Assembly: GCA_009781315.1 (NCBI GenBank)
Contig: WQYI01000001.1
Coordinates: forward strand, 1-64,000
Reading direction: 5' to 3'
DNA from: Candidatus Endomicrobium embiratermitis
GTDB taxonomy: Bacteria; Elusimicrobiota; Endomicrobiia; Endomicrobiales; Endomicrobiaceae
Length of the DNA: 64,000 bases
Below the pieces are notes generated by a model. The model was given only the letters and a program-made list of their open reading frames with translations. It was not told the origin of the DNA and did not search any database. The stretch's first letter is position 1. Each line of letters begins with the position of its first letter. Positions 11,249 to 49,908 of this stretch are shown here, one piece after another. The position numbers and the translations under genes were made by a program.

Positions 11249-11292
11249 ATAATTTTAACCTCGCCTTTGAATTTTATATAAGGAAGCAAAAA

Positions 11293-12395: not shown

Positions 12396-12415
12396 ACTCA
12401 CTGCGTTCATTAAAT

Positions 12416-31450: not shown

Positions 31451-34400
31451 ATGAAAATAGTATCTGTTTTTAACTTAAAAAAAACCATATCAATTTTGAC
31501 TCTAGTATGTTTCCTTATTTCCGCAATGGGAACAAACGCGTACTCTATTGGCTCTATTGGCGCGCAGGAAAATACTGAAAACGGAGCCAAGCCACCAAGC
31601 CAAGCCAAGCCAAGCCAAGCCAAGCCAAGCCAAGCCAAGCCAAGCCAAGCCAAGCCAAGCCAAGCCAAGCTAATTAACCTCTCCCCTAATGGGACTTTTT
31701 TACAAGACGTTTTGATATCGAACGCTCACGGTAAAATAACCGAGAAGGCGTTTTTTGACGCGCCCGAGATAATCATAAATATTCAAGACCTGCATTGTAA
31801 TCCTGAAATTCAAAGAAATATAGCCGCGCTTATAGAAGAAATAGACGACAAATACGGTCTAAGCGCCGTGTATGCCGAGGGTGGTTACGGTAATGTAAAT
31901 ACAGGCTGGATTGAAAGTGTCGAAGATAAAAACGACAGAAAGGAATTGCTGGATGTTTTGTTAAATTCCGGAAGGATTACGGGAGCGGAATATTATTCTG
32001 CGCTGAACAATAAATACGATATTATAAAAGGAATAGAAGACGAAAAGGTACACAAGCAAAACATAGTAAGGCTCAATGAAATATTATCGCGGCAGGAACG
32101 CTATGAAAAGAAATTAAAAGCATTGGAAGAAGAGCTGGTTTTGATACAGGCGAAATATCTCGGACACAGGAATAAACGGTTTGACAAAATAACGAAAGAG
32201 TATAAAGCCGGAAAAATCAGCATGGATAAATATTATGCTTTGCTGAAGAAGTATTGTGAAAATATTAAAGAAATAGATATGCGCAAGTACCCGAACATAA
32301 GTGCATACGTAAAAATGGGCGGGTTTGAAAAAAAGACTGACTATAAGAAAGTACAAAAACAGCTTAAAATATTTATAAATATTTTGAAAGAAAAACTGCC
32401 GTATTCGGTATATTCTGAGTTATTGGCAAAAACGGATAATTTTGCAAATAGCGGCGATTTATGTTTTTACGCGGGAGAAATAGCTGAAAAATACGGAATC
32501 GAAATAAGCAGGACATTGCCCGATTTGGATTTATTTTTTAAAAACGCGCGTCTGCAAAAAGCGATAAACGCGCATGAACTGCCGGAAGAAGAAAACAATC
32601 TTTCGCAGGAAATAAGAATAGCGTTTTCAGATGATATAGACGAAATAGAGGCGGCGTTTTTGTCGTATTTTTACGGGTATTTTAAGAATTATCTGACAAA
32701 TTCGTTAACTGCGGAGGATTATAAATATTTCGTAAGGAAGTTTGAAGATTTTAAATATTTGTGGGACAAATATAATTATGAGAACAGTTTGGAAGAATTG
32801 CGGGAAGATTTTAAAATATTGGACGAATATTATAGGGTCAATGATGAAAGGGACGAGATATTTTTACGGCAATTACGAATCAAAGACAAAGGGGAAGGCG
32901 TTTTATTAAATCTTTCTCATATGGAAATTCAGGATAAATTAAAGAATTCTAAAGTTGTTGTGGTTGTGACGGGAGGATTTCATTCCGAGGGTTTTAAAGA
33001 AATGCTTAAGGGCAGAGGAGTGTCGAGCATTACGGTAATGCCGAATTTAAACGGAGTGGGGAATTCTCAAAAGATTTACGAAAAGCTTGTTAAAGCACAG
33101 GCGGGGAAAATTTCGATTATTGGCAGCTCGGCAACGGCAACCCCTCACCCTCAAGCTTCGTCTTTCGCGGGCGAGGGAGAAAAGGCGCAGGCTGTTTTTT
33201 CCTCGCCCCTTGCGGGAGAGGATGCCCGCAGGGCAGGTGAGGGGTTGCCGTTTTTGAAGGACAGTTCTGCTTTAGCATTAACGCTTGGTTCGACGGACGC
33301 AAAAATAAGTTATGCAGACGGCAGGTATATAGTAAATATTAACGGCGAAATTTTAGAGATATATAAAAACGAAATCACAAACAAATTTGAAATAAAAGAT
33401 TTTCCTGAACAAGCAGCCGTCGAAAACTCCGTACGCGCTTTGCAGATAACGGAAAACGTCAAAGAAAGCGTACTTTCAAATATCGAAAGAATAAGGACTT
33501 TGTCCTCTCCAGCGGGAAGCGCGGAACTTATATATTGGCTTGTAAAAGAAATATCGAAAAGCGGTCCGTTAAGCTCCGTTATGCAAAGCGGCGACGGCTT
33601 AATATGGCGCATAGCAAGCAATCCTGAAGTACAAAAAGCGATAAAAGAAAACGAAGGTTTTACCCTAAACGAAATAAGCATGCTGCCCGACGGCGTGCAG
33701 ATGATAATATCAAATCATGCCGTTCTAAAAGACAAATTCAAAGACAATCCCGTAATAAGCGCGGTGTTAAACGTTCCCGAGTTTAAAACAATCCTTTCAA
33801 TGCTGTCCGACAAATTTAAAATTCAAAATTATCTTACGCCGACATTAAATACGGTAAAAGGATATTTTGACGCATTAGTAAGCGCGGCGACAGTCAGGAC
33901 AAAAATAAAAGCAGAAGATGTTAAAGGCTATGGGAAATACGGCGTCGAAGTTATAAATTATTATAAGCAAAGACACGACTTGCTGCAAGCCGTATATGCG
34001 CTTGACGCGGATTTATATAAAAAATCGTATGAATCCATGTTAAAATCCGCGCAAATTGTAAAAACGGCGTTTTTAAATAAAGAATTGGATTTGCAATTGC
34101 TGATGGAAGTTTTTACAAGAGACGGGACGCTTAAAGAATACGCTATGCAGTTATTAACGGAGCCTGGGAACAGCGCCATAGGGCCTTGGTATGAAATAAT
34201 AAGTTCTGCAGGGGAAGAATTTGACGATAAATATAACGGATGGATAAGAGAAGCTGTAGATACTTTAATATCGGCATTTCCAGCAAATCAAAGGCCTAAT
34301 GCGGAAAAAGTAAGAGATGAAATGATAAGGAATACAAAACCGCACAGTTTCTCTTCGATGATTTGGTCTCCTGAAGAAGCAAGAAAAATATTCTCTGAAA

Positions 34401-37400
34401 TGTCTCCCATGCAATATCAACAAATTGTTAGTATTTTTTCAAGACAGCTTAATTATTCCTCTGATTTTGAAAAATACGGCAATCATGGTTATACAATTCC
34501 CAAGACGGGCGTAGTTCATATGCATGCGATAGAAAATGAAGAATTATTCAAATCCGTCTACATTCACGAACTTATACACGCTTTGGCAAATAAAAAGATA
34601 ATCGATATTCCTATGCAAATTGAAATATTGACGCAGTCAGTAAGCGCGTTATTATATTATTCTACAAATATTCCCAAAGAAGAAAATGAAAAGAAAGAGT
34701 ATTCAGTTTTTGAGCTTGGAGAAAAGAATGCGGATAAAATTAAAGGGGAACTTAATTCAAATACGTTAGATCCGTTCATTTTTAATTTAATATCGGAAAA
34801 TTGGCAGCTGTTGGGATATAAATCAGTCGAAGACGCTTTGAAATTTCTAAATCTTGTTGAGTCCGGAAATAATCTGGCAGTTGAAATGTATGAAAGATTG
34901 AAGGGAACAGTTGCGGCGGGAATAATATGGGGGAGAAATAAGCATATCCGAGATGAAAAAGAAAGAAAGAAAAAATCATTGTCCGACGCTTTAGAGTGGG
35001 CGGATAAGGTTTTGGCCAAAGAAACAAGTAAAGTGCCTAAATTTTTTCCGGATATGGAAAAAAGAGAAAGGATAGTAAAAGAAATAGAAGAACTGTTCAG
35101 AAGTATGACCGGCAATGAGAAGTTTGAGCTAAAAGAGAGAAAGAAGACAAGCGAGAATGAGGAAAGCGGCGAACTTTTTTCTATTTCCGAAGACGGCAAT
35201 ACAATATATTACGATCCTCTGTTGCTAGATTATCCCGATGAAGATGCGGCGAAAGCGTTGTTTTTGGAGCAAATATCGGTAGTGCGTTTTTCAAAGCCCG
35301 TAAAAGTTGAAAAAGGGTACGATAATTCCAGATTTTATCTTTTGATGTCAACGCTGGAGTTAATAAGGACAAGAAAAGATAATTTTAAAGGGAAAGTAAA
35401 CGAAGATTTAATAAAGGTATTGTATCCCAACCCTGATTCGGAATCTGCAAAAAGGACAATGCAGGACAAATCGCTTTTTGCGCAATATATAGAAGGATTG
35501 CTTTTCGTAGCAAGAACCGGAAGAAAAGAAGACCCGCGCATTGAAAATGCTTTGGTGAAAAAAGCCTTGAGGGAGACGTCTGATGCCGTGAAGAGAATAT
35601 CCGGATTAGGGGTTATAGGTGACAAAATACCGCAAGAGGTTTATGAAACGGCCAAAACGGAAATCTGGCCGAAACTTGCGGAAATAATAAAAGAGTCCGA
35701 AGAATATTTAAAGAAAAGAAAAATGGAAGAACTGGCCAGAGAAAAAGCCAGACGTGAGCAAATACAAAAAAACATAGAACAAATGCTTGAAAATTTACGC
35801 AAACAAAAAGAATCCGGACAGAAGCAAACCGGACAGCAGCAGCCTACGGAAGAGCAAATCCGCGAGATGAAAGAAATGCTTGAAAATATGAATGAAGATC
35901 AAAAGCGCGAATTTGAAGAATCAATGAAAGAGTTAATGCGCGACGAAATGGATTCTATGCTGCAACAGCAGTCCGGCGGATACGCGCAAAACGGAAAACA
36001 AGCGTCCTCAAACGAAAAGCAAGGAGAGCAGTACGACAAAATGCAGGGGCAGGCGTCTTCTGCGCAGGGCAAAGCGGGAAAACTCGGGCAGACGCAGCAG
36101 GAAATAGCCCAAACAATAGAACAGATGCGCCAAGAGCTGGAAAAACTTGAAAAATCGGCAAGAGATATAGAAAGCAAAAGCGGTTCCGGCGGGGATATGA
36201 GCCAGGACACAAGCCGTCTGGAAGAGCTGTCGCAGCAATTGCAGACGCAGGCAGAAGAGCTGGGTCAGGAGATGTCCGACGTAAGAAACGGGACGCAAAA
36301 GTTAAAACAGCAGGGAAATCAATTAGACGGCGAGAGAGAATCGGCAAAAGGAACGCAGGCCGCATCCGACGATTTGTATCAAAAAGGCAAAGATTTGGAC
36401 AAAGGCGTTAAAGAATTTGAAGAAAAAATGAAAGAGCTGCAGGAAAAAATTCAACGTCTGCAGGAACTGTTAAAAGAAAATAAAAACGTGCCTTCGCAAA
36501 GGGATCAGGCGGAAAAAGTAGAAAAAGGGGCGCAGGATTTAGAGGGCAATGTTTCGGAAATAGACCGGTTAAATAAAGGAGTTGGAGATTCTTTGCAAAG
36601 TTTGCAGCAGCAGTTGGAGGAATATAAGAAAGACATAGAAGAACTTAAAAAACAGATAGGGCAGGGGAAAGACGGTTCGGAGTCAGGCAAAGAACAGCCT
36701 TCGTCTTCGCCGAAGCAGGGACAAAACGAGCAGGCGTCTGAAAAATCTTCGCAGTCTTCTTCGCAGGACGGACAAAGCGGGCAGAAAAAACCGTCCAAAC
36801 AGCCCAGCCAAAAAGTAAAACAAGCTGCAAATCCGTTTAAAAAGTTCGGCAGCCAGGGCAAATCAAATAGCGGCAAAGGCGGAGGCAAAGCCAAAGTAAA
36901 AGACAGAAGCGCGGAAATAAAACATCCGGATTTAAGCCAAACCGAATTAAACGAGATGTATAAACTTCTCGAACCGTTTAGAGAGGGTGCAAAAGAGCTT
37001 GCCGACGAAATAAAAAGAGAAATGCAAAAACCAATACCCGGCGAGTATCTTGCGGGAATGGAAAGCGGGGAATTAAGCGATGATTTTTCGCGCCTTGCCG
37101 ACGGCAAAATATTTCAAAAAATGCTCGTCAAAAGCAGCGGCGAACACAGGGTAATGATAGTTATAGACGGCAGCGGGTCTATGGGGAGCGTTGATGTTGC
37201 AAGCGACGGCAAATTAATAGATAACGGAAGCGACATGTACGGCACGCTTAAAATGCTTATTACGGTTTTGCTTGCTTTAAAAGAAATAGACGGCATAGAA
37301 ATAGGCGTGACGATGTACGGCGATATTGCAAATTTTTTGGAAATTACAAAATCCAAAGATATAACCGACGAATCTATTTACAGTATGGTTAAAGAGCTTA

Positions 37401-40400
37401 AAGACGGCAGCAACAGCGGTACTGAAGATATTCCGTCATTGCGCGCCGCCGTTGAAAAAATATCCGAAGACGGCAGCGGAATTTTTAAAAGTATTTTACA
37501 TATAAGCGACGGAGACAGAGGTAATATCATTCCTTATAATGTCGAAAAATTTTACAGAGAGAATGCGGAAAGCGGAGTAAAGTTTGTCAGTTACGGGATA
37601 GGAAAAAATGCTGCCAATTTGGAGGAACGCTATACCCCTTCGGGTGAAATTTCCGCTCTTTATCCCCAGGGGCTTGCTCCGGCCGCTAAAACGGTTGCGA
37701 AAGCCGAAGATTTGCTCGGTGAAATGGCGGCGTTCGTGAAAGATATGTTTAAGGAAGAACGCGACGAGACGATGACTTTCGGCAAAAATATAAAGAAAGT
37801 TTTAAAAGAAACGCTGAAGGCAATACCGAGCGTAACGACCGGATATGTTGTTGAAAAATTTATAGAATTCATAAAAGAAGACGGATATTTCAGAATTGAC
37901 CCGAAGGATCCGTCTCAAATCGAAAAAATCATAAACCTTTCGCTCGACGAAACTCAATCCCATATCGCCATGAATTTTTCCGTAAAATACGTGCAAAAAC
38001 TCATAAAATTTTTATTTGAAGGCAGATATGAACACTGGATATTAAGCGATGCGGATACAGATAAGAAATACGGCAAATTTTTACCTTCCGCGGAGGTTCG
38101 GGAAAAAGACGGATATATTATTAAGGTAAGCAAAGCGCCTTTGGATTTAACTGCTCCCGGGGAAGATAATTATGTATTTGCGACGATAAATTTAGACGAA
38201 AAAACCGGAAAAAAAGAAATAATAATACATCAGTCGGTTTTGGAATGGATAAAAAATAACGGGCCTCCGCAAGGGTATGAAGCGGAAACTTTTATAGAAA
38301 AACAGCTTATACCCCACGAACTAGAAGAATACGAATTTATACAAAGAAGAGCCGGCGGCGATACACAATGGCTTGAACAAAAATACGGCAGCGACGCTTT
38401 AAGGGAAAGTTCTCAGCCTCATGAGATTTTCCATGAACTTACCGCAGACAAATACGAACCTTTATTTGAAGTCGGCGACGCAATAGCCAAAGGCGACGAT
38501 TTAAGCGGCAACATAACTCATTGGGGTTACGTTACCCGCAACGGAAAAAAATATTTAAAAATTAAAAGCGACGGACAGAAAAAGCCGGTAGAAATTGCCG
38601 TTGACAACAGGGCTGATTCTAAGAAAGCCGAAAACAGAGTAAAGTTATATACGAAAGAAAACGGCGAATGGAAAGAGTTTATCGCTGGGGAAATTGACAC
38701 AATTCCCGACCTGATAGGTTACCGCGTGGGAGATTCCGGCAGAATAAACGCGTATAAATTTACAGCGGGTAACAGAGATTTATTAAAACGCATGCTTACG
38801 ACTTACAGCAAACCGGGAAGCGACGCGAGAAATAGCAATATTTGGCTTGAAGGGCAAAAAGGCAGCGGAAAAAACGCGCTGTCTTTTGTTTTTGCCGGTC
38901 TTACGGGCATGCCCATGCGTTTTGTAAGCCTGCACGCAAATACAACGCAAAAAGATATAAGCGAAAGAATAATTCTTATGCAGGGAAAACAGGAAATAGA
39001 GTTAGAACTGGCTGTTTCCTCGCCCCTTGCGGGAGAGGATGCCCGCAGGGCAGGTGAGGGGTTGCCGTTAAAGATAAAAGTTGAAATACCGGCAGTAATT
39101 ACCAAACATGAATTTTCGGAAATATATAAGGCGGCGCTGCAGGGAGAACTTGTAATAATAGACGAAGTCGACAAAGTAAAACTTGAAGGCGTGCTGTCGG
39201 CGTTAAATACCATTCTTACCAGGGAAAGAATCAGCGGTCTTTCTTACGACGATAATTTCAGAGTAATAATGCTCAGCAACGACCGCTCGGGCAAGGACGT
39301 AAGCGGAAACGATTTAAACAGAAAAAACCGCGATTTGCTCAGCAGAATGACAAAAATCAAGGTCGGCTATCCTGAATTCGGCGAAGAATACGAAAGAATA
39401 ATGGACGGCATTTACGGCGATTTGGAAGACGGCAGCGAGAATAAAGAGATATTGTCGGACATAGTATCGTTTCTTATTACTTTGGCCGGTTGGTCGCGAA
39501 ATTATAACGGTAAAACCGTCGAATTTGACGGCAAACAAATAACTTTTCCGAAACTCTCAAAATCAATATCTCCGCGGACAATAATAAAAATAGCAAAACA
39601 CATACATCCGGACAATTATATGGACGATATCGAATATCTCGGCTCCTTAATCGATTCGGCTTTCGCAACGGACGCGTTAAGCGATAAAGAGAGAGAAAAG
39701 TTTAACGAATTTTTATCGCAGTTCGCAAACTTTAAAAGATTTAACCAAAACGCGAAATTTGCTTTAGGTTATAAAAAGCTTGAAGACGCCGAATTTGAAT
39801 ATAAGGAAGAAAACGGCGCTGTTTACGCGGTATTAGGCAAAGGCAAATGGGAAGTAAAAGTAAAAACGGCTATAAACCCTGAAAATATAAAAGAAGCGAG
39901 GGAACGTTTAAAATCCCGGCCGCAATATCAGCTGCCTGCGAATATGCTTTTATTTTGGCAATGGATGAAAGATATAAATCTCGGCGAAAACATTATGGTT
40001 TTGGGAGTACCCGGAACCGGAAAAACCGTGCTTACGGATTATCTCCTTAATACCGTTTTGGGGCTGGACGCGCAGTCAATGCAGTTAAACGTTCAGTCTT
40101 CAGGAACGGATTTACTCGGCCAACCGGAACTAGAAAACGGAATAAACGTATTTCGCGAAAGCCCTTTGGTGCGGGCGATGATTGAAGGAAAACCCGTAAT
40201 AATAGACGAAGCGGACAAACCGCGCGACGAAACCGCGTTAGCCGTTTTAAACAATATTCTTCAGGACGGATTCGTAACGCTTCCCGACGGCAGAGTAATT
40301 TACGCCGAAGAAGGATTTTTCGCAATTTCCGCCGGCAATCTGCCGGGCAAAGGCGGCACGGCGTCGACAAGAATCAGCGGCGAAGTAATGGACAGGCACA

Positions 40401-43400
40401 GCGTTTACATAATGGAACCGCTGCCCAAAGAGCAAACGATTGAAATGTTAAAACGTTATGCCAAAGCCAACGGCTATGAAATGTCGGAAGGATTTATAGA
40501 AAAGCTGACAGAATTTCATTACGAAATAATGAATGATAAAACTATCAAACAAAAACCGTCAATAAGAACGCTTGAAAAAACAATCGGCACGCTCGCAAGA
40601 GACCCGTCAAGATTCAGCGACGTATCCGGCGTTTATATGGAAGGATTTTCCGTGTCAAATGAAAAAATCAAAAAAATGGTTTTGTCAAAAGACACAATAT
40701 ATTTTGGTTTGCCAAAGGACCTGGATGTGCTTTCTCTCTCTTACGATGAAATTAAGAGATTTACAGGCACATTTATGACGTCCAATGACGGATCTACTTT
40801 GTTTTACAAAGAAGATAATGGTTACAAATTTCTTATGACAGAGGGAAGAGTAGCAGCATTTGACTATGGAATGATGGTTCACGTGGCTTGTATTCTGAAC
40901 GTAATTGAAATGAGCGGATATCAGGATAAAACAATTCAAGAAATACGCAATGGTTTTCTAGAATTGTATGACAACATTTATTATAATAATAAGTCTTTGG
41001 GTAATATTGAGAGAGCTGCATTACCGGTATTTAAGAATATGGTAAATCTGCTTACAGCTTTTAAGACATATCAGGGTTTATATAGAGATAAAATTGAAAA
41101 TTATCTAAAACATAATTATCAAATGAACCGTAATCAAGCCGGTATTCCCGCTTCCTCTTCGGAAGAGACGCCTTCTTATGCGTATAATAAAAGGGATATA
41201 AGAAGATTTGAGGATTTGTTTGCAGGTAAACTTCGGTATAACGAAAACGAAGAGTTGGTGCAGCTAGTCAAGATAAGTAATTCTATTCTTGCTAACTTGA
41301 ATAGCATTGGTAATGAATGGTTTAATGTCCGGTATATCAATACTAAGGGCGTGATGAAAATAGATGTTGATAGAAAAAGATTTAAAGAAGAAATAGGAGA
41401 TTTTATAGAAGATTTTCTTAATAAAATTGAAAGAGAAGGATATCCTAATATCGGCAGAATTGATGCAATACGAAATAATTTGGGTGAATTGGCCTCTTTT
41501 AGTAAAAACGAGAAAGTAACACGTAGAGATTATGAAGACCTACGCTCTGCTATTCTGGGAACATTCAATTCAACAATAAAGAAGGCAATTAAATATAACA
41601 CTGGCACGATTTCTTCGGATTTTATAGAACTTGTACAAAATCTGGTTTCCGATACGAACGCTTTATTAAAGGACATTGAAACTTATCCTGAAGTCGGGAT
41701 TTCCTACGATGAAATTATGGAAGATATAGACGAATTTAACAGCTGGCTGGATAATGTGAGCGGATATACGATTAACCCTATTATGAGGAATGAACAACCT
41801 ATATTACCACGAACGTTCTATCGCGAAATAATAAAACCTGCAGAATATTTTCTTAAGACAATTGAAATGAGCGGATATAGAGGCGAAATAATTAAAGGGA
41901 TACGCGATGGTTTGCAGGAATTGACTCAAAAGAACAAAGAAGGTGCTTTTAATAATTATAATGCCAACACTGCAGTACCTGTGGATTATATCCCGGCGAT
42001 TAGGAATATGCGGGATTTAAGTAGGGATTTTTCAAGGTACGCACGCAATAACAAAGAAGAAATCGAAAAACAAAAATACAATCAACAAACAAACCGCAAT
42101 CAAACCAATGTTTCCCTGCAATATTCATATAAAGAAGGCAAAAAATATCTTGATATTGGCGGTGTATCTGCTCCTATAGATGATCGTAAAGACGATCCCC
42201 GCAGAGTGAAACTGTTTTTAAGCGGCGAAGATAACGCTAAAGAAGTTTTCCCGCGGGATTTAACCGAAATTCCGGAAATTATATATTATCAAATCGGCGA
42301 CGGGGAAAAGACGGCGTTTGTTTTTACCGACGGGAATAAAGAATTGCTAAAACGCATGATTGCAACTTACGGCAAACCCGAAACCGACGCGAGAAACACA
42401 AATCTTTGGCTTGAAGGGCAAAAAGGGAGCGGTAAAAACTCATTGGCTTTTATTTTTGCCGGGCTTACGGGCGTTCCCATGCGTTTTGTAAGCCTGCACG
42501 CTAACACCACGCAAAAGGACATAAGCGAAAGAACGGTTTTATCCAAAGCATACAAAAAAGTTATAACTAAAACTCCCGACGGCCGGGAAATAGAAATTGA
42601 TATACCGGCAAATATAACGATAAAACAGTTTTCCGAAATATACGAAGCCGCTAAAAACGGGGAGCTTGTAATAATAGACGAAGCCGACAAAGTAAAACTG
42701 GACGGAGTGCTCTCTGCGCTAAACACCGTGCTTACGAGGGATAATATAAAAGGTTTGACATATGACCCGCGTTTCAGGGTAATAGCGTTAAGTAACAGCC
42801 ATGAAACAAAAGACGTAAGCGGAAAAGATTTAAACGAAAAAGCGAGAGATTTCATAAGCAGGCTGACAAAGATAGAAGTACCGTATCCGTCGAAAGAAGA
42901 AGAAATGCAAAGGGTAATAAAAAGCGTGTTCGGCAGCTTGGAAAAAGACAGCAAAGAATATCAGATAATTGACAGTGTAATAAACATTGCCGAAAAAATA
43001 AGAAATAATAAAAATATATCAAGACCGTTATCTCCCAGAAGCGTATTAAGAATAGCCAAACACATAAAAGCGTTTCCGAAAGACACATATCCTTTAACCA
43101 GTTTAATAGACAGATTTTATGGTGTTGGAACGCTGCCGGAAAACGAACATATACAATTTGAAGTGATGGGTGATACTTTTTCCTTCCCGAATATAAGGAG
43201 TAAAATGGGTTATATGGGATCTGGGTCGTCGGTTGCTGACAAAATGGGTTATGACGATTATAAAACGGAAATAAAATTTGAATATACGGTTGATGATAAA
43301 GGCGTAGTTTATGTAAATTTAGGCAAAGACGATCGTAAAGTAACAGTGCCTACGAAATATAAAAGCATAAAAGAAGCGCGAGCGAATTTAAAAGACCAAT

Positions 43401-46400
43401 ATCACCTGCCGGTGAATATGATTTTATTCTGGCAGTGGATGCAGGATATATCGCTCGGCGACAATATAATGGTTTTGGGAGTGCCGGGCACTGGCAAAAC
43501 CGTTCTTACGAATTATTTGTTGAACAATGTGCTGGGCTACGGCGCCGATATGCAGACTTTGTCGGTTCAGACCGAAGGGCGGGATTTGCTGGGCGAATGG
43601 TCTTTGCAAAACGGCGAGCAGGTATTTAGCGAAAGCCTGATAGTAAAAGCTATGATAGACGGCAAACCCGTAATAATAGACGAAGTTGACAAACCGCGCG
43701 ACGAAACGGCGCTTGCGGCGTTAAATAATATTTTGGAAGCGGGCTTTGTAACGCTTCCGGACGGCAGAGTAATACACGCCAAAAAAGGCTTCTTAATAGT
43801 ATCGGCGGGCAATTTGGCAAACAAAGGCGGAACCGCGTCGACAAGAATCAGCGGCGAGGTAATGGACAGGCACGCTATTTACGTTCTCGACCCGTTACCC
43901 GAAAAAGACACAATAGAAATGTTAAAGCGTTATGCCAAAGCCAACGGCTATGAAATGCCGGAAGGATTTATAGAAAAGCTGGCAGAATTTCATTACGAAA
44001 TAATGGAAGATAAAGATATAAAACAAAAACCGTCAATGAGAACGCTTGAAAAAACAATCGGCACGCTAGCAAGAGACCCGTCAAGATTCAACGGCGTAAC
44101 TGGCGTTTATTTGGAAGGGTATTCCGTGTCGAATAAAAAAATCGAAGAACGGATTTTAAAATATCTTTTCCCTGAACCGCTTCCGCTTGCTTACAATAAA
44201 TATATGCAAGATCTATCCGAATTTAGGGACTACTACGATAGAAAAAATCTTAATTTGATGTACCGCAGTGGACCTCGTACACTTACTAATGCCGGGTCTA
44301 TTGTAAAAAATGGAAAACTTGAACCAGAAATATTCAATGATAAAGTAATAGTTCCCATAGATTCTTTTCTTAAGATAATAGAAATGTGCGGATATCATGA
44401 TGAAAGAATTCAACAAATACGCGATGGTTTACAGGAATTGCTTAAAAAGGAATACGCCGCAGATAGAACTGGCGAGTATCTTCATGATTTTAAAAAAGCT
44501 GCATTGCCGGTGCTTAAAAATATGGCAAGTTTGGATAGTGATTTTTCGTTCTATGCAATTGAGAAGAAAGCAGAGTCTATAAACCAAAAAAACCAAAAAA
44601 CAAAGAACTATGTTCCGCTTGATGACGAGTTTGTGAAAGAATGGAAAAAAGAATATGCGAAAAATATGAAAAATGGAAATTCTTCGTATTTAAGTTTTCC
44701 TTTGTCCGGCGGTTATACGACCATATATATTGGGAGCAAACAAAACTATAGAGAATTTTATGATGGTATTTATGAATTTTTAATAAGACAAGGTTTATTA
44801 AAAATAGGAAGGAAAAATGAGGGTTACTCGGCTCTAGCACAAGAAAATCCTTTCGTAGAAAAAGCTTTTATAGATGAAATAATAAAAGATATAGATACAG
44901 TAAATGAATTTGGACTCGGTAGGCGGTTTAAGAATGAGGAATCAGCTAAATATAAAAAATTGTATGAGGATTTATTCATAAAAATCGGTAATAATGTGGA
45001 AACTTTAATTTACAAGCTCGAAAATATAAAAGTAAATGAAGACGTTCATATTTCGTATAAATCTGAAAATGGTAAAAAATATCTTGATATCAACGGCGTA
45101 TCTGCTCCTGTAGATAGTCGCAAGGGTATCGAAAAAGACCCCCGCAGGGTAAAACTGTTTTTAAGCGGCGAAGATAACGCCAAAGAAGTTTTTCCGCAGG
45201 ATTTAAAAGAAATTCCCGAAACGATATATTATCAGATAGGCAGCGGGGAAAAGACGGCATTTGTTTTTACCTTCGGAAATAAAGAATTATTGAAACGTAT
45301 GATTGCAACTTACGGCAAGCCCGAAAGCGACGCCAGAAACACAAACCTTTGGCTTGAGGGGGAAACGGGAAGCGGTAAAAACGCATTGGCTTTTGTTTTT
45401 GCCGGTCTTACGGGTATTCCTATGCGTTTTGTAAGCCTGCACGCAAATACCACGCAAAGAGATATAAGCGAAAGAACGGTGATAGATACGATTGAACAAG
45501 AAGTTTGGGTCGCGTTGTCCGGCGGCAAAAAGGTTAAAGCAAAAATCCCCGCGATGGTAACAAAAAAACAGTTTTCCGAAATATACGAAGCGGCGCAGAA
45601 CGGCGAGCTTGTAATAATAGACGAAGTGGATAAAGTAAAACTCGACGGAGTATTGTCGGCGTTAAACACCGTTCTCACAAGGGACAAAATATCCGGGTTA
45701 AAATACGATCCGAGGTTCAGGGTAATAGCGTTAAGCAATGACCACAAAACCGGCGACGTAAGCGGAAAAGATTTAAATCTCAAAGCGAGAGATTTCATAA
45801 GCAGATTTGCGAAAATAGAAGTGCAGTATCCTACAAAAGAAGAAGAAATACAAAGGGTTATGAAAAGCGTTTTCGGCGATTTAAGCTCTAAGTCTTTAGA
45901 ATATAAAGCTGCAAGAATGACGGTTGACGATATAGTTACCGCAGCCGTAACAATAAGAAATGACAAAGTATTGACAAGACCGTTATCGCCCAGAAGCGTA
46001 TTAAAAATAGCCAAACATTTAAAGGCCTTTCCGAAAGATAAGGAATATCTGCGCAGTTTGATAAAGCAGTCTTACGGCGCGGAAACATTGTCTTCAAACG
46101 AACAAAAAAAGTTTGAGAAGATATTGGAAAATATATTGGGAACAAAAGGATATAAAGAATATCCGAAAGATTTTCAGATGGAATATGGTAAAGCTGAAGG
46201 CATCGATGAAAAATACATCCAAAAGGCTAAAGATCTCCTTATGGGTTATAACAATCGAGAGGCTAGAGATTTCATTACAGGAAAAGGAAAAGGCAAAAAG
46301 AAATATGGGTTAGCCAGTATGGATGAAAACAGACGTGTTGAGTTCGCTGTACATGAGGACGATGGTAATGACGGACGTATCCTTGATTTTGTCGATGTGG

Positions 46401-49400
46401 GCGATATTTTGGAGATTTTAGAAGATACAGAGACGCAAATAAATAATTTAGTAAATAAAGAACAGGAATGGAAAGATAATGGATGGAAAGACGACGACAT
46501 AGGAGAAATTAGAAAAATGATGGGAAGTCTGTCCGGGCTGGCAAGAGAATATAAAGATGAAAAATCCAAAAATGAAACCGATAAAGATCAAATATTCAAA
46601 AATGTTATAAATAATGATTTTGAATACATTAAAAGCTCCGACCCCAGGGCTGTCATTGCGGGCTCCGACCCGCAATCCGATATTGTTTACGTAAGCTTAG
46701 GCAAAGGCGAATACAAAGTAACGATCCCGACAAAATTTAAAAATATAGAGGAAGCGAAAGCGCGCCTAAAAGACCAATATCATCTGCCCGCCAATATGCT
46801 TTTGTTCTGGCAATGGATGAAAGATATATATCTCGGCAATAATATAATGTTATTGGGCGTGCCCGGCACCGGAAAAACCGTGCTTACAAGCTATCTGCTT
46901 AACGATGTGCTGGGGATGGAAACGGATTTAATGCAGATGAACGTTCAATCTTCAGGGACGGATTTGTTCGGCGAGTGGGGAATGGAAAACGGGAAAATGG
47001 TATTTAAAGACAGTTTAGTAGTAAAAGCGATGAGGGAAGGCAAACCCGTGATAATAGACGAAGTTGATAAACCCAGGGACGAAACGGCGCTGGCGGCGTT
47101 AAATAACATTTTAGAGTCGGGTTTTGTAACGCTTCCGGACGGCAGAGTAATTTACGCTAAAAAAGGATTTTTTATAGCGTCGCTGGGCAATTTGGCAAAC
47201 AAAGGCGGTACCGCTTCGTCAAGAATAAGCGGAGAAGTAATGAACCGCCACAGCGTGTATATACTAGACGGACTGCCCCAAGACCAAACCGCGCAGATGC
47301 TAAAAAAATATGCCAAAAACAATAATTATAAAGTTTCGGACGATTTTATAAAAGCGCTTGCTGCTTTTCACGAAAGAGTTGCAAACGAGCCGAGCCTGCC
47401 GCACAAGCCCAATATGAGAACGCTTGAAAAAACAATCGGCGCGCTTGCGCAGGACCCGTCGAGATATTTCAATATAGCCGAAGTATACCTCGAAGGATTT
47501 TCACTGGGAGAGCCCGGCCAGGAACTTCGCGTATACCAAATGGCGGCGGAAAAAGTAAATAACGAACCTTCTTTTGACGAAGTGTCTAAAAAATACGTAT
47601 TATTGTCTGAAAATATTAATTTGAATGAAAAATTATTAGACAAATTAAATAAGTTCAGAGAAGAATTCGACGCAAGCGAAAAACACAGACCGTTCACGGA
47701 TATCGAATTTTTAGGGCTGTTAAAACAAGTTTCAAAAAACAGCGGCGACGTTTTAGGCGTTTACGATTATGCCGTAAAAACCCTGCAGCTGCAGGAGTCC
47801 GACGCCGAAGCTTTAATAGACATAGAAAAGTTATGTTTCGAAAGTTTCTTAGATGAAATTTTAAAATACGAAGTTAAAAACAAATCGGACATGAAAAAAA
47901 TAAAAGTTCTTGAAGAAACAGGGGTATTCAGTACAATTTACAATTTAGAAAGATTAAGATTACATCAATCTTTTCTTGAATTTTACAATCCGAAAAATGT
48001 GAATTTGTTAAAAAAGATAACAAAATTTGCACACTTGCCTCCTTATGGATTATTGAGACAAGTTTTAACAGACGGAAATGTATTGGATATGTATTATTAT
48101 TTCCGTGAACGGTACCGGGACTCGCCAAAGCAGTTTAAAGAACAGATAGAAAGAGAGTATTTTGAAATTTTCCTTGATGAAATCATAGAATACGAATTCA
48201 AAAACAGACGGGACATAAAAAAAATAAAAAGCCTTGCAAAAGACGTCGTGAATGATCTTGAATCTTTCAAAAAATTCAAAGCTATTTTAGGTACGCCTGC
48301 TTTTACTAAAATAGAGAAAGTATACAATAAACACTCTAAAATATTAAAGTCTAAATTAGATATTGATAATTTTGGAAAATTTTATGACACAATAGCTCCG
48401 TATTACGATAGCAAGAGCGGAAAAATTTTATGGCCTTTAGATGAGTTTATGGAATTCTTGCATAGACAATTAAGCGGCTATGCCGGTCTGCCATCGGATA
48501 TTGATGGGTTTCTTGAAGACGTGAAAAAAATTATAGATTTTGGCGACATACGCTCTGCAGTTACTCGCAACATAAAAGAGGTATCAGAATCAGAAAGCCA
48601 TCGTAATAAAGGGGAGTTTTATGACGGTAATTATTCATATTATCGGTTTGATAAAGAACAATTGTCAATACTGACAAGAATCTATGAAAATCTTTTAAAA
48701 AATAATGAATTCAAACTCCTATATAGGCGAGACTTGATGGAAGAAGTTATGGACCTTGTATACGAAGGGCATATTGCTTTGGCTTATGAGTTTATTATCC
48801 GGTTTCACTACCATGAGAGTGCCAGTCTTCAAGATACTATTTTAAATTTTTCCGAAAGGGAGAAAAGAGCACAAATGCTTGGCTTAAGCAAGCATTTATC
48901 CGATGAGGAATTTATTTTCCATATAATAAAAAAATATACTAGAAACGCAAGCCTAGTAGCGGGAATGAATTTTATGAATCATGAATCTTTGATTGGCGTT
49001 GATTTGGATAAAATAATATATGCAACCGATATTAAGCTGTTCAAAGAGGATATTTCAAATTTTTTTCAGGATATCGTAAAAATAAACAAATATTCGAATT
49101 ATGTTTATCTTGACGTAAACGGAAAATATTCTGATAGAAACATTACCGAAACGCCTGCGTTTACAGATGACCGGGATATTTGGACAATGTTTGCCGAAGG
49201 TTTTAAAATGTATAGAGAATATGCGGGGCACGAGAAATATGAGGAATTAATATTGCCTGCGGGAGCAGGTATTTCAGAAAAAATACGCATTTATAAACAC
49301 GGTGCATATTATACGGATCTCAATAAAATTATAACTAGAGTCGATGGTAAAGCTGTTTGGGGCAAGGTGAGTAACGGAAAAGTCGTATTATGGAGCGACG

Positions 49401-49681
49401 CCGACAGCGCAAGAGTTAAAGAAGAAATAATGTCCATGTTAAGCGGCAGCGGAAAGATAAAACCTTCCAGAGAGTTACAACGCAAATTAAAAGATTTATT
49501 CAAGTCCGCCGGAAAAAAAGTGGATTTAAAAAATATGTTCCCTCAAAATGCCGTAAATATTGCCGCCCAGCGCGGTTTTGACATTCCTGCCGATCCGCTG
49601 CTAAATCTTAATAAAACAACCGAAATATGCGAACGGCAAATTGATATCAAATTAATTTCCGCCATGATGCATTCATCTTAA
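31451..49681 (+). CDS. Giant protein: N-terminal novel domain, coiled coil, VWA/MIDAS domain and six AAA+ modules (midasin-like)
   Basis: 6076 residues in one uninterrupted frame. Order: signal-peptide-like segment (1-34); CAAGC-encoded KPSQA repeats (about 49-73); unrecognised N-terminal domain (75-560); helical region with HELIH (1039-1043); Gln/Glu-rich coiled coil (about 1417-1817); VWA with MIDAS D1906-G-S-G-S1910, T1991 and D2020; a segment with HEIFH (2324-2328); and AAA+ modules with P-loops at 2468, 2852, 3656, 4010, 4637 and 5136. Modules form three A-B pairs; A modules read GSGKN, B modules GVPGTGKT, all with IIDE Walker B. Six AAA+ modules plus MIDAS in one chain is the make-up of eukaryotic midasin; MoxR-VWA gene pairs are the usual bacterial form. 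Inference: a covalent hexameric remodelling ATPase whose VWA part holds a client. The secretion-like N-terminus is hard to reconcile with ATP use. Confidence 0.9.
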   Translation: MKIVSVFNLKKTISILTLVCFLISAMGTNAYSIGSIGAQENTENGAKPPSQAKPSQAKPSQAKPSQAKPSQAKLINLSPNGTFLQDVLISNAHGKITEKAFFDAPEIIINIQDLHCNPEIQRNIAALIEEIDDKYGLSAVYAEGGYGNVNTGWIESVEDKNDRKELLDVLLNSGRITGAEYYSALNNKYDIIKGIEDEKVHKQNIVRLNEILSRQERYEKKLKALEEELVLIQAKYLGHRNKRFDKITKEYKAGKISMDKYYALLKKYCENIKEIDMRKYPNISAYVKMGGFEKKTDYKKVQKQLKIFINILKEKLPYSVYSELLAKTDNFANSGDLCFYAGEIAEKYGIEISRTLPDLDLFFKNARLQKAINAHELPEEENNLSQEIRIAFSDDIDEIEAAFLSYFYGYFKNYLTNSLTAEDYKYFVRKFEDFKYLWDKYNYENSLEELREDFKILDEYYRVNDERDEIFLRQLRIKDKGEGVLLNLSHMEIQDKLKNSKVVVVVTGGFHSEGFKEMLKGRGVSSITVMPNLNGVGNSQKIYEKLVKAQAGKISIIGSSATATPHPQASSFAGEGEKAQAVFSSPLAGEDARRAGEGLPFLKDSSALALTLGSTDAKISYADGRYIVNINGEILEIYKNEITNKFEIKDFPEQAAVENSVRALQITENVKESVLSNIERIRTLSSPAGSAELIYWLVKEISKSGPLSSVMQSGDGLIWRIASNPEVQKAIKENEGFTLNEISMLPDGVQMIISNHAVLKDKFKDNPVISAVLNVPEFKTILSMLSDKFKIQNYLTPTLNTVKGYFDALVSAATVRTKIKAEDVKGYGKYGVEVINYYKQRHDLLQAVYALDADLYKKSYESMLKSAQIVKTAFLNKELDLQLLMEVFTRDGTLKEYAMQLLTEPGNSAIGPWYEIISSAGEEFDDKYNGWIREAVDTLISAFPANQRPNAEKVRDEMIRNTKPHSFSSMIWSPEEARKIFSEMSPMQYQQIVSIFSRQLNYSSDFEKYGNHGYTIPKTGVVHMHAIENEELFKSVYIHELIHALANKKIIDIPMQIEILTQSVSALLYYSTNIPKEENEKKEYSVFELGEKNADKIKGELNSNTLDPFIFNLISENWQLLGYKSVEDALKFLNLVESGNNLAVEMYERLKGTVAAGIIWGRNKHIRDEKERKKKSLSDALEWADKVLAKETSKVPKFFPDMEKRERIVKEIEELFRSMTGNEKFELKERKKTSENEESGELFSISEDGNTIYYDPLLLDYPDEDAAKALFLEQISVVRFSKPVKVEKGYDNSRFYLLMSTLELIRTRKDNFKGKVNEDLIKVLYPNPDSESAKRTMQDKSLFAQYIEGLLFVARTGRKEDPRIENALVKKALRETSDAVKRISGLGVIGDKIPQEVYETAKTEIWPKLAEIIKESEEYLKKRKMEELAREKARREQIQKNIEQMLENLRKQKESGQKQTGQQQPTEEQIREMKEMLENMNEDQKREFEESMKELMRDEMDSMLQQQSGGYAQNGKQASSNEKQGEQYDKMQGQASSAQGKAGKLGQTQQEIAQTIEQMRQELEKLEKSARDIESKSGSGGDMSQDTSRLEELSQQLQTQAEELGQEMSDVRNGTQKLKQQGNQLDGERESAKGTQAASDDLYQKGKDLDKGVKEFEEKMKELQEKIQRLQELLKENKNVPSQRDQAEKVEKGAQDLEGNVSEIDRLNKGVGDSLQSLQQQLEEYKKDIEELKKQIGQGKDGSESGKEQPSSSPKQGQNEQASEKSSQSSSQDGQSGQKKPSKQPSQKVKQAANPFKKFGSQGKSNSGKGGGKAKVKDRSAEIKHPDLSQTELNEMYKLLEPFREGAKELADEIKREMQKPIPGEYLAGMESGELSDDFSRLADGKIFQKMLVKSSGEHRVMIVIDGSGSMGSVDVASDGKLIDNGSDMYGTLKMLITVLLALKEIDGIEIGVTMYGDIANFLEITKSKDITDESIYSMVKELKDGSNSGTEDIPSLRAAVEKISEDGSGIFKSILHISDGDRGNIIPYNVEKFYRENAESGVKFVSYGIGKNAANLEERYTPSGEISALYPQGLAPAAKTVAKAEDLLGEMAAFVKDMFKEERDETMTFGKNIKKVLKETLKAIPSVTTGYVVEKFIEFIKEDGYFRIDPKDPSQIEKIINLSLDETQSHIAMNFSVKYVQKLIKFLFEGRYEHWILSDADTDKKYGKFLPSAEVREKDGYIIKVSKAPLDLTAPGEDNYVFATINLDEKTGKKEIIIHQSVLEWIKNNGPPQGYEAETFIEKQLIPHELEEYEFIQRRAGGDTQWLEQKYGSDALRESSQPHEIFHELTADKYEPLFEVGDAIAKGDDLSGNITHWGYVTRNGKKYLKIKSDGQKKPVEIAVDNRADSKKAENRVKLYTKENGEWKEFIAGEIDTIPDLIGYRVGDSGRINAYKFTAGNRDLLKRMLTTYSKPGSDARNSNIWLEGQKGSGKNALSFVFAGLTGMPMRFVSLHANTTQKDISERIILMQGKQEIELELAVSSPLAGEDARRAGEGLPLKIKVEIPAVITKHEFSEIYKAALQGELVIIDEVDKVKLEGVLSALNTILTRERISGLSYDDNFRVIMLSNDRSGKDVSGNDLNRKNRDLLSRMTKIKVGYPEFGEEYERIMDGIYGDLEDGSENKEILSDIVSFLITLAGWSRNYNGKTVEFDGKQITFPKLSKSISPRTIIKIAKHIHPDNYMDDIEYLGSLIDSAFATDALSDKEREKFNEFLSQFANFKRFNQNAKFALGYKKLEDAEFEYKEENGAVYAVLGKGKWEVKVKTAINPENIKEARERLKSRPQYQLPANMLLFWQWMKDINLGENIMVLGVPGTGKTVLTDYLLNTVLGLDAQSMQLNVQSSGTDLLGQPELENGINVFRESPLVRAMIEGKPVIIDEADKPRDETALAVLNNILQDGFVTLPDGRVIYAEEGFFAISAGNLPGKGGTASTRISGEVMDRHSVYIMEPLPKEQTIEMLKRYAKANGYEMSEGFIEKLTEFHYEIMNDKTIKQKPSIRTLEKTIGTLARDPSRFSDVSGVYMEGFSVSNEKIKKMVLSKDTIYFGLPKDLDVLSLSYDEIKRFTGTFMTSNDGSTLFYKEDNGYKFLMTEGRVAAFDYGMMVHVACILNVIEMSGYQDKTIQEIRNGFLELYDNIYYNNKSLGNIERAALPVFKNMVNLLTAFKTYQGLYRDKIENYLKHNYQMNRNQAGIPASSSEETPSYAYNKRDIRRFEDLFAGKLRYNENEELVQLVKISNSILANLNSIGNEWFNVRYINTKGVMKIDVDRKRFKEEIGDFIEDFLNKIEREGYPNIGRIDAIRNNLGELASFSKNEKVTRRDYEDLRSAILGTFNSTIKKAIKYNTGTISSDFIELVQNLVSDTNALLKDIETYPEVGISYDEIMEDIDEFNSWLDNVSGYTINPIMRNEQPILPRTFYREIIKPAEYFLKTIEMSGYRGEIIKGIRDGLQELTQKNKEGAFNNYNANTAVPVDYIPAIRNMRDLSRDFSRYARNNKEEIEKQKYNQQTNRNQTNVSLQYSYKEGKKYLDIGGVSAPIDDRKDDPRRVKLFLSGEDNAKEVFPRDLTEIPEIIYYQIGDGEKTAFVFTDGNKELLKRMIATYGKPETDARNTNLWLEGQKGSGKNSLAFIFAGLTGVPMRFVSLHANTTQKDISERTVLSKAYKKVITKTPDGREIEIDIPANITIKQFSEIYEAAKNGELVIIDEADKVKLDGVLSALNTVLTRDNIKGLTYDPRFRVIALSNSHETKDVSGKDLNEKARDFISRLTKIEVPYPSKEEEMQRVIKSVFGSLEKDSKEYQIIDSVINIAEKIRNNKNISRPLSPRSVLRIAKHIKAFPKDTYPLTSLIDRFYGVGTLPENEHIQFEVMGDTFSFPNIRSKMGYMGSGSSVADKMGYDDYKTEIKFEYTVDDKGVVYVNLGKDDRKVTVPTKYKSIKEARANLKDQYHLPVNMILFWQWMQDISLGDNIMVLGVPGTGKTVLTNYLLNNVLGYGADMQTLSVQTEGRDLLGEWSLQNGEQVFSESLIVKAMIDGKPVIIDEVDKPRDETALAALNNILEAGFVTLPDGRVIHAKKGFLIVSAGNLANKGGTASTRISGEVMDRHAIYVLDPLPEKDTIEMLKRYAKANGYEMPEGFIEKLAEFHYEIMEDKDIKQKPSMRTLEKTIGTLARDPSRFNGVTGVYLEGYSVSNKKIEERILKYLFPEPLPLAYNKYMQDLSEFRDYYDRKNLNLMYRSGPRTLTNAGSIVKNGKLEPEIFNDKVIVPIDSFLKIIEMCGYHDERIQQIRDGLQELLKKEYAADRTGEYLHDFKKAALPVLKNMASLDSDFSFYAIEKKAESINQKNQKTKNYVPLDDEFVKEWKKEYAKNMKNGNSSYLSFPLSGGYTTIYIGSKQNYREFYDGIYEFLIRQGLLKIGRKNEGYSALAQENPFVEKAFIDEIIKDIDTVNEFGLGRRFKNEESAKYKKLYEDLFIKIGNNVETLIYKLENIKVNEDVHISYKSENGKKYLDINGVSAPVDSRKGIEKDPRRVKLFLSGEDNAKEVFPQDLKEIPETIYYQIGSGEKTAFVFTFGNKELLKRMIATYGKPESDARNTNLWLEGETGSGKNALAFVFAGLTGIPMRFVSLHANTTQRDISERTVIDTIEQEVWVALSGGKKVKAKIPAMVTKKQFSEIYEAAQNGELVIIDEVDKVKLDGVLSALNTVLTRDKISGLKYDPRFRVIALSNDHKTGDVSGKDLNLKARDFISRFAKIEVQYPTKEEEIQRVMKSVFGDLSSKSLEYKAARMTVDDIVTAAVTIRNDKVLTRPLSPRSVLKIAKHLKAFPKDKEYLRSLIKQSYGAETLSSNEQKKFEKILENILGTKGYKEYPKDFQMEYGKAEGIDEKYIQKAKDLLMGYNNREARDFITGKGKGKKKYGLASMDENRRVEFAVHEDDGNDGRILDFVDVGDILEILEDTETQINNLVNKEQEWKDNGWKDDDIGEIRKMMGSLSGLAREYKDEKSKNETDKDQIFKNVINNDFEYIKSSDPRAVIAGSDPQSDIVYVSLGKGEYKVTIPTKFKNIEEAKARLKDQYHLPANMLLFWQWMKDIYLGNNIMLLGVPGTGKTVLTSYLLNDVLGMETDLMQMNVQSSGTDLFGEWGMENGKMVFKDSLVVKAMREGKPVIIDEVDKPRDETALAALNNILESGFVTLPDGRVIYAKKGFFIASLGNLANKGGTASSRISGEVMNRHSVYILDGLPQDQTAQMLKKYAKNNNYKVSDDFIKALAAFHERVANEPSLPHKPNMRTLEKTIGALAQDPSRYFNIAEVYLEGFSLGEPGQELRVYQMAAEKVNNEPSFDEVSKKYVLLSENINLNEKLLDKLNKFREEFDASEKHRPFTDIEFLGLLKQVSKNSGDVLGVYDYAVKTLQLQESDAEALIDIEKLCFESFLDEILKYEVKNKSDMKKIKVLEETGVFSTIYNLERLRLHQSFLEFYNPKNVNLLKKITKFAHLPPYGLLRQVLTDGNVLDMYYYFRERYRDSPKQFKEQIEREYFEIFLDEIIEYEFKNRRDIKKIKSLAKDVVNDLESFKKFKAILGTPAFTKIEKVYNKHSKILKSKLDIDNFGKFYDTIAPYYDSKSGKILWPLDEFMEFLHRQLSGYAGLPSDIDGFLEDVKKIIDFGDIRSAVTRNIKEVSESESHRNKGEFYDGNYSYYRFDKEQLSILTRIYENLLKNNEFKLLYRRDLMEEVMDLVYEGHIALAYEFIIRFHYHESASLQDTILNFSEREKRAQMLGLSKHLSDEEFIFHIIKKYTRNASLVAGMNFMNHESLIGVDLDKIIYATDIKLFKEDISNFFQDIVKINKYSNYVYLDVNGKYSDRNITETPAFTDDRDIWTMFAEGFKMYREYAGHEKYEELILPAGAGISEKIRIYKHGAYYTDLNKIITRVDGKAVWGKVSNGKVVLWSDADSARVKEEIMSMLSGSGKIKPSRELQRKLKDLFKSAGKKVDLKNMFPQNAVNIAAQRGFDIPADPLLNLNKTTEICERQIDIKLISAMMHSS
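31596..31670 (+). repeat. Microsatellite (CAAGC) x15 inside the giant ORF: probable phase-variation switch
   Basis: Fifteen perfect tandem CAAGC units (75 bp) directly after the signal-peptide region; one more unit lies just upstream at 31588-31592. With 15 units the frame continues as AAG-CTA-ATT-AAC. Five is not a multiple of three, so gain or loss of one unit shifts the frame, and the following bases GCTAATTAACC then give AGC-TAA or GCT-AAT-TAA: an immediate stop in both wrong frames. Confidence 0.97.
31671..33130 (+). other. Giant protein: unrecognised N-terminal domain (residues about 75-560)
   Basis: Starts with a beta-strand and loop IINIQDLHC (about 108-116), then VYAEGGYGN (140-148), a long helical insertion (180-440) and a closing VVVVTGGFHSEGF (about 503-515). 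The strand-Glu-Gly and strand-Gly-His pattern recalls the TraB/ChaN/EreA-type folds, in which two such loops form the active site. That comparison is only by pattern. Confidence 0.5.
33135..33252 (+). repeat. Palindromic element inserted in frame in the giant ORF, full copy
   Basis: Perfect 15-bp terminal inverted repeats (cggcaacccctcacc at 33135-33149; ggtgaggggttgccg at 33236-33250) enclose a GC-rich interior with a further hairpin (ctcgccccttgcgggagagg). It is translated into a Ser/Ala/Gly-rich stretch containing SSPLAGEDARRAGEGLP. Composition differs sharply from its AT-rich surroundings. Confidence 0.92.
37121..37760 (+). other. Giant protein: von Willebrand A domain with intact MIDAS
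   Basis: VMIVIDGSGSMGS gives the DxSxS metal site (Asp1906, Ser1908, Ser1910). SGTED supplies Thr1991 and HISDGDRG supplies Asp2020, all with normal VWA spacing. A beta-alpha Rossmann pattern surrounds them. In midasin and MoxR-partner proteins such MIDAS domains bind an acidic residue of the client through Mg2+. Confidence 0.9.
38770..39615 (+). other. Giant protein: AAA+ module 1A
   Basis: Walker A G2468-QKGSGK-N2475 (Asn where Thr/Ser is usual), Walker B VIID2571-E2572 with VDK following, and a sensor-1-like MLSND. NTTQKDISERII precedes a loop lengthened by an inserted palindromic element (39015-39069). The module ends with PRTIIKIAKHI. Confidence 0.88.
39015..39069 (+). repeat. Palindromic element inserted in frame in AAA+ module 1A, partial copy
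   Basis: 55 bp identical to 33198-33252. It encodes SSPLAGEDARRAGEGLP in the same frame as the first copy. In modules 2A and 3A the corresponding loop lacks this segment (compare ISERTVL to IEIDIPA in 2A), so insertion rather than ancestral sequence is the simpler reading. Confidence 0.95.
39940..40640 (+). other. Giant protein: AAA+ module 1B
   Basis: Canonical Walker A G2852-VPGTGK-T2859, Walker B VIID2919-E2920 followed by ADKPRDE, then the MoxR-like ISAGNLPGKGGTASTRISGE and VMDRH. The latter resembles sensor 1 and the region bearing an arginine finger. Confidence 0.9.
42330..43080 (+). other. Giant protein: AAA+ module 2A
   Basis: Walker A G3656-QKGSGK-N3663 (Asn again), Walker B VIID3743-E3744. 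Closely parallels 1A: NTTQKDISERTV, GVLSALNTVLTR, ALSNSHETKDVSG and PRSVLRIAKHIKAFP. Confidence 0.9.
43420..44110 (+). other. Giant protein: AAA+ module 2B
   Basis: Walker A G4010-VPGTGK-T4017, Walker B VIID4077-E4078 followed by VDKPRDE. Near-copy of 1B, with SAGNLANKGGTASTRISGE, VMDRH and LEKTIGTLARDPSRF. Confidence 0.9.
45270..46030 (+). other. Giant protein: AAA+ module 3A
   Basis: Walker A G4637-ETGSGK-N4644 (Asn), Walker B VIID4724-E4725. It contains NTTQRDISERTV, GVLSALNTVLTR and ALSNDHKTGDVSG. Confidence 0.9.
46651..46680 (+). repeat. Half-copy of the 'gtcattgcgggc' palindromic element inside the giant ORF
   Basis: tgtcattgcgggct followed by ccgacccgcaatcc closely matches one arm of the intergenic hairpin at 49764-49830. 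It is translated as AVIAGSDPQSD in the linker between modules 3A and 3B, where pairs 1 and 2 have nothing comparable. Confidence 0.85.
46790..47480 (+). other. Giant protein: AAA+ module 3B
   Basis: Walker A G5136-VPGTGK-T5143, Walker B VIID5203-E5204 followed by VDKPRDE. It contains SLGNLANKGGTASSRISGE, then VMNRH in place of VMDRH. Confidence 0.9.
47500..49681 (+). other. Giant protein: unrecognised C-terminal region (residues about 5350-6076)
   Basis: About 725 mostly helical residues with no domain I recognise. It includes two FLDEI-x-EYE-KN repeats (near 47850 and 48170) that look like a duplicated helical unit, and ends in NKTTEICERQIDIKLISAMMH. Base composition between about 47900 and 49350 appears more AT-rich and less biased than the AAA+ parts, as in the inter-pair linkers. 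Confidence 0.5.
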
Positions 49682-49763
49682 TATTTTTTGCTAAATACCT
49701 TATCCTTTATAAAAACCGGAGATTGTTCTTAGTATTTTTCTTGGTATCTCTATCCCCCCTGTT

Positions 49764-49830
49764 TGTCATTGCGGGCTTGACACGCAATCTATGATTTACG
49801 CCGAGATTGCGTGTCAAGCCCGCAATGACA
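49764..49830. repeat. Palindromic 'gtcattgcgggc' element with 27-bp perfect arms
   Basis: Arms 49764-49790 and 49804-49830 are perfectly complementary around a 13-base loop. It lies 83 bp after the giant stop and may also stop transcription, though no T-tract follows. The rest of the 344-bp gap (49682-50025) holds only the brnTA terminator. Confidence 0.95.
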
Positions 49831-49908
49831 ACCGTATACTACCCGACTTTTCAGCTTGCCGTAAAGAGTATAAAGACAGGTTATATATATTGGATATGTC
49901 AAAATAAA

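Follow-up and report, generated by a model that had tools for sequence, protein, structure and literature searches.

The window, that is, the whole 64,000-nucleotide stretch of DNA analysed here from the termite-gut bacterium Candidatus Endomicrobium embiratermitis, contains the gene for a real, conserved and apparently undescribed bacterial protein that carries six AAA+ modules and a VWA domain in one chain. This protein is a variant of the MoxR-VWA type that falls outside the midasin family, and its parts list resembles those of both midasin and NorQD. Judged from sequence comparison, the six-module chain is a tandem triplication of a pair of modules, termed A and B, that took place within Endomicrobiaceae independently of midasin.

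Anatomy of the 6,076-residue chain

The protein is encoded by positions 31451-49681 (+), from an ATG with an AGGA Shine-Dalgarno-like motif shortly 5' of it, and without an internal stop. The single open frame claimed by an earlier, sequence-only reading of this DNA was confirmed, and the complete MIDAS (Asp1906, Ser1908, Ser1910, Thr1991 and Asp2020) and the six pairs of P-loop and Walker B named there were found to be exact at every position, with VIIDE following 64-100 residues after each P-loop. From the N-terminus, the chain runs through a signal-like segment, a header, an HExxH domain, a pre-VWA region, the VWA domain, modules in the order A-B-A-B-A-B and a C-terminal region (Table 1). 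The same reading had put the VWA at the end opposite to that of midasin; the domain does precede the modules, of which A1 starts at residue 2392, but at residues 1890-2080 it is not at the end of the chain. The GKN of the A modules, the HExxH domain before the VWA and the signal-peptide-like N-terminus are features beyond those first described.

Table 1. Features of the 6,076-residue protein and their positions in the window
Feature	Positions	Strand	Basis
Signal-peptide-like N-terminus, aa 1-31, MKIVSVFNLKKTISILTLVCFLISAMGTNA-Y	31451..31543	+	Hydropathy, (-3,-1) pattern; hydrophobic start also in relatives
Header domain, aa 92-560, IQDLHCNPEIQRN ... GGFHSEG, possibly TraB/TIKI-like	31724..33130	+	Common to many giant ORFs
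In-frame mobile repeat peptide SPLAGEDARRAGEG, aa 584-601	33200..33253	+	94% identical copy at about aa 2523-2540
Metallopeptidase-like domain, aa 818-1250; HExxH 1039-1043, Glu1058	33902..35200	+	Conservation in fused relatives, model, weak matches
Pre-VWA region, aa 1251-1860, helical, then Q/K/E-rich	35201..37030	+	Homology to G225 split VWA protein
VWA domain, aa 1890-2080, complete MIDAS	37118..37690	+	MIDAS residues, profile match to midasin MIDAS 6qt8
AAA+ module A1, GQKGSGKN at 2468, holds mobile repeat insert	38624..39676	+	
AAA+ module B1, GVPGTGKT at 2852	39881..40660	+	
Long B1-A2 linker, helical, about 510 aa	40661..42193	+	
AAA+ module A2, GQKGSGKN at 3656	42194..43135	+	
AAA+ module B2, GVPGTGKT at 4010	43358..44170	+	
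AAA+ module A3, GETGSGKN at 4637	45134..46090	+	
AAA+ module B3, GVPGTGKT at 5136	46739..47515	+	
C-terminal region, aa 5356-6076 (~720 residues), no recognised domain	47516..49678	+	

All six modules match Pfam AAA_5 above the curated cut-off, and their six P-loop motifs compare with a mean of 0.48 and a maximum of 4 in 500 shuffles of the protein. Self-comparison of the chain revealed two alternating types, the A modules being 45-71% and the B modules 60-67% identical among themselves, with only short or weak matches between A and B. Walker A and B, the sensor-1 Asn, the Arg finger and the sensor-2 Arg are intact and in order in the six modules of each of three genomes; in places sensor 2 was missed by the motif pattern and was counted from the NMRTLEK visible in the alignment. 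The P-loop of the B modules ends in GKT/S. In the A modules, GKN replaces GK[ST] in 16 of 16 cases from 10 genomes, and the Walker-B DE, sensor-1 N, Arg-finger R and sensor-2 R of these same modules are invariant. The alternating A and B sites, with GKN and GKT/S respectively, probably differ in their catalytic properties. With the A-module GKN as the exception, the hallmarks of the MoxR (helix-2-insert) clade were found: Walker A and B, sensors, Arg finger and AAA_5 are all present, and the VWA/MIDAS partner is here a fused VWA with DxSxS, T and D. A low-confidence AlphaFold model places hairpins in both A and B where a helix-2 insert would be expected.

The VWA domain is weakly recognised by Pfam (E 0.003, below the cut-off), yet all MIDAS residues are present, the domain is conserved in 12 genomes, and its profile matches the midasin MIDAS (6qt8, E 5e-5) among other VWA proteins. 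Residues 1252-2063, which run from the pre-VWA region into the VWA, align with the split VWA protein of a relative, G225 (L052). The VWA, the pre-VWA region and A-B were observed to co-occur in 12 genomes, as two genes in G225.

Palindromic repeats occur within and beside the gene. The one coding for SPLAGEDARRAGEG is found nearly identical and in frame in a linker (Table 1) and at 39017-39070, inside module A1, and a MITE-like one (GTCATTGCGGGCTTGACACGCAATCT...) lies 3' of the gene at 49760-49850.

Nearest known systems and the case for one ring

The A, B and VWA profiles were searched against solved structures. The B profile matched the whole midasin chain with an E of 9e-65, its best module scoring 53 bits, followed by NorQ (39 bits), CobS (37 bits) and CbbQ (34 bits), and the A profile matched CobS with 45 bits and the whole midasin chain with 7e-31 (best module, 32 bits). 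The whole-chain lead of midasin comes in part from summing over its six modules.

Like the bacterial giant, midasin (Rea1/Mdn1) unites a MIDAS VWA with six AAA+ modules in a single polypeptide, and it is the best whole-chain sequence match among solved structures for both module profiles. However, its VWA is C-terminal, after the AAA ring, whereas the bacterial VWA is N-terminal to the modules; the bacterial modules come as an A-B pair in three similar copies and resemble one another more than they resemble midasin; and the bacterial chain has a signal-like N-terminus and an HExxH domain, with no known link to the ribosome. NorQ-NorD, CbbQ-CbbO and RavA-ViaA also pair MoxR/AAA_5-type modules with a MIDAS VWA, and a Foldseek search of a weak model placed NorQ and CbbQ closest among single-module structures. 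Unlike the bacterial giant, which is fused, with two module types and a covalent 1:6 ratio, these systems are homohexamers of separate subunits; separate AAA+ and VWA proteins of the NorQD type are not in the 6,076-residue chain but are encoded by separate genes in G225. Among single modules, CobS matches the A profile best, and CobT carries a VWA, but the two are separate subunits of a metal chelatase with CobN, of which nothing is seen for the bacterial giant. Mitochondrial VWA8 has a VWA and several AAA modules in one chain, but only three such modules are predicted (PMC8517341), its VWA is C-terminal, and it is a matrix protein. Single chains with six AAA modules are known in dynein, midasin and RNF213 (PMC4047620, PMC7311170), of which the dynein heavy chain and RNF213 are eukaryotic and have linker/stalk or E3 parts instead of a VWA. 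Elusimicrobiota have been reported to be enriched in huge proteins of more than 5,000 residues, those of Elusimicrobiota being without assigned COG in that report (PMC11573180), and no multi-AAA+/VWA machine is described among the huge proteins of Elusimicrobiota and Omnitrophota in the literature found. In that literature, six AAA+ modules per chain are described only for eukaryotic giants, and no bacterial system of the present form is described, in line with the sequence-only reading; PMC7203096, in which the words midasin and MoxR both occur, may mention bacterial relatives of midasin.

MoxR-VWA pairs are usually separate subunits, with one NorD per NorQ hexamer and the VWA finger in the pore, a 1:6 docking reported in the case of NorQD and suggested for Rea1 and VWA8 (PMC9976466, PMC13036017). 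The best explanation of the bacterial giant as a whole, which we hold to be somewhat more probable than its alternatives together, is a single-chain MoxR-clade AAA+/VWA machine for protein remodelling. Three tandem A-B units would supply six AAA+ modules, most likely forming one pseudo-hexameric ring in which A and B alternate. The B modules would contribute the full ATP-hydrolysis set, and the A modules, with their GKN, would probably bind nucleotide with poor or different hydrolysis. The VWA, fused ahead of the ring, would dock on it with the MIDAS metal holding the substrate, in the manner of NorD on NorQ, and a single chain would thereby fix the ratio that NorQD reaches with separate subunits. 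In one-unit relatives, three A-B pairs would come together to form such a ring.

The argument for one ring draws on the number of modules, the conserved Arg fingers and the ring-forming relatives, and counting for a remodelling machine is that its nearest solved relatives are ring-forming VWA partners. Counting against it are the signal-peptide-like start, long B-to-A linkers (about 320-510 aa), the lack of an operon partner hinting at a substrate, and an AlphaFold model of A1-B1-A2 from a shorter homologue (1,197 aa, 13 alignment rows), which has a pLDDT of 56 and a pTM of 0.37 and does not reproduce ring geometry. Foldseek of this weak three-module model returned NorQ, CbbQ, Rea1 and dynein, but is uninformative on geometry, as the multi-module alignments have an rmsd of 14-24 Å. 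The long linkers would also suit AAA+ folds that do not close into one intramolecular ring, the A-B units of different chains instead forming rings and joining the giants into a multi-ring network, and single-unit relatives must assemble between chains. Such a network is considered rather unlikely, since exactly three units recur in three proteins that are complete or nearly so and also in a fourth genome, there over two contigs, and chance can hardly account for such a hexamer count. The likely evolutionary steps kept in this lineage make the evolution and logic of a fixed stoichiometry of one VWA to six AAA modules directly testable, in what may be a natural ring of alternating GKN and GKT sites.

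N-terminus, header and HExxH domain

A hydrophobic segment was observed at the start of all family members for which the N-terminus is available, the two split proteins of G225 among them, and most of these N-termini combine a positive n-region with a good (-3,-1) site. By hydropathy, the 6,076-residue protein shows no other convincing membrane segment, the remaining peaks lying in or beside AAA+ modules. A signal-peptide-like start would place the ATPase modules in a compartment not expected to hold ATP, in conflict with a simple cytosolic analogue of midasin: either the segment is no export signal here, or AAA+ modules with conserved catalytic residues sit outside the cytoplasm. The question posed by these starts is that of AAA+ motors working at an envelope or host-facing site, and the putative ring, with its ATP cycle and substrate remodelling, may be located at or beyond the inner membrane.

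Across 67 of 336 Elusimicrobiota genomes, the signal-peptide-like segment and the IQDLHxxxExQRN header (about 500 residues) were also found at the head of many unrelated giant ORFs, with lengths of up to 12,027 aa (e.g. L053, L098, L099). The header gave a weak TraB match in one homologue (E 0.03). Some of the giants bearing it carry second, divergent copies of PGK and in some cases also of PGI (G294:C17, L099; G000:C3:105145-106488, L098; L053:3-5189). An argument against export, namely that the only PGK bears this header, was rejected, as normal stand-alone PGK and PGI exist in the same genomes.

The signal-peptide-like starts, those of the two G225 split proteins included, and the sharing of the header with many other giant ORFs would fit an exported protein whose AAA+ modules serve as nucleotide-independent binding or structural parts of a large envelope or extracellular protein. 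This proposal appears fairly doubtful, since the catalytic residues are conserved family-wide and a purely structural role would let the Walker B motifs and Arg fingers decay. Also unlikely, in our estimate, is an exported, periplasmic or host-facing machine with six AAA+ modules in a single chain that uses ATP outside the cytoplasm, as one of a set of signal-headed giants with second PGK/PGI copies.

The HExxH motif (1039) and a Glu 19 residues further are conserved in all fused relatives. An AlphaFold model of this region (pLDDT 76) gave weak Foldseek matches to minigluzincins (archaeal selecase and jannalysin; prob 0.66-0.72, E about 1), and one family member matches Peptidase_M78 with an E of 5e-4. 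The domain is likely to be metallopeptidase-like, and in the remodelling machine it would act as a protease or clamp coupled to the unfoldase. Conservation of HExxH and Glu, like the separate VWA and A-B genes of G225, would also agree with a polyprotein from which this domain or another protease cuts the VWA and AAA parts to give ordinary MoxR/VWA subunits. Cleavage lacks direct evidence, however, and the one-frame fusion of VWA and A-B is kept in most genomes holding both, which makes a polyprotein quite improbable.

Family history and genomic setting

The A-B unit was searched in 341 Elusimicrobiota genomes and 394 relatives, two largely overlapping sets, and strong matches were found in 12 genomes, every one of them Elusimicrobiota. 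No relative was found in viral contigs or plasmids. The relatives include Candidatus Endomicrobium macrotermitis and neocapritermitis, which from their names we take to be termite-gut MAGs, and the giant gene is absent from two congeners. The VWA-A-B-A-B-A-B order stands in one frame in the source genome, which is 1.9 Mb in size, in G292 (5,192 aa) and in G294 (6,027 aa, 5' end cut by the contig), and G297 has the three-unit chain spread over two contigs; a search for the same architecture in related genomes, as suggested in the sequence-only reading, was thus successful. At least two units are present in G296, whose A-B contig starts inside a preceding B. A single unit was found in G326 (6,534 aa, frame complete at the 3' end) and in G225, where an A-B protein with C-terminal ankyrin repeats (1,332 aa, L052:6489-10484) and a VWA protein (1,030 aa, 10379-13468) are encoded by separate adjoining genes. 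In G008, G163, G161, G164 and G007, one unit each is visible, in frames cut by contig or fetch ends.

The matching open frames in the congeners G292 and G294 and a codon-position bias typical of purifying selection (27/19/48% of differences at positions 1/2/3 in 5,080 aligned codons) rule out an assembly join, so that an assembly or frame artefact fusing separate genes, named at the outset as a possible refuter, is extremely improbable even for a MAG with repeats 45-71% alike, repeats that differ too much for misassembly.

In the B tree, the B1, B2 and B3 modules of four genomes were found to cluster by position, which dates the triplication to before two genera diverged; resolution is lower in the A tree, and both trees are limited by long branches. 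The proposal that the array arose independently, through duplication of a MoxR-like pair, was borne out by the B tree, the single pair in sister lineages and the module identities, which contrast with scores against midasin of no more than some tens of bits. Among the outer relatives, the clearest carry a single unit fused behind a VWA or, in G225, VWA and A-B as separate genes, and common descent of the six-module array with midasin is not supported. The lineage keeps the likely steps, from separate VWA and A-B genes through a VWA-A-B fusion to triplication.

The neighbours of the giant gene are housekeeping genes (HisS, S2, EF-Ts and RRF), which at this locus provide no substrate hint and no operon partner. 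In G292, these genes stand side by side, with a hypA-rpsB gap of about 350 bp, and the giant gene is on another contig; the gene has either moved, or been lost and gained. A link to ribosome assembly through the neighbouring rpsB was rejected, as this proximity is not conserved.

Some further genes were observed in passing. Two autotransporters with Chlamydia-type PMP repeats lie near the locus, at 2-6370 and 19235-22231, and in E. proavitum the region upstream of rpsB carries a different giant, autotransporter-like, with Chlam_PMP repeats and a length of at least 5,148 aa (L095:3-15446). G007 encodes a second giant (L059:3846-11777, -; 2,644 aa, frame truncated at its 5' end) that combines three AAA_5 modules with beta-propeller repeats, in which a MIDAS VWA (D2017) lies downstream of the AAA_5 modules, a midasin-like order.
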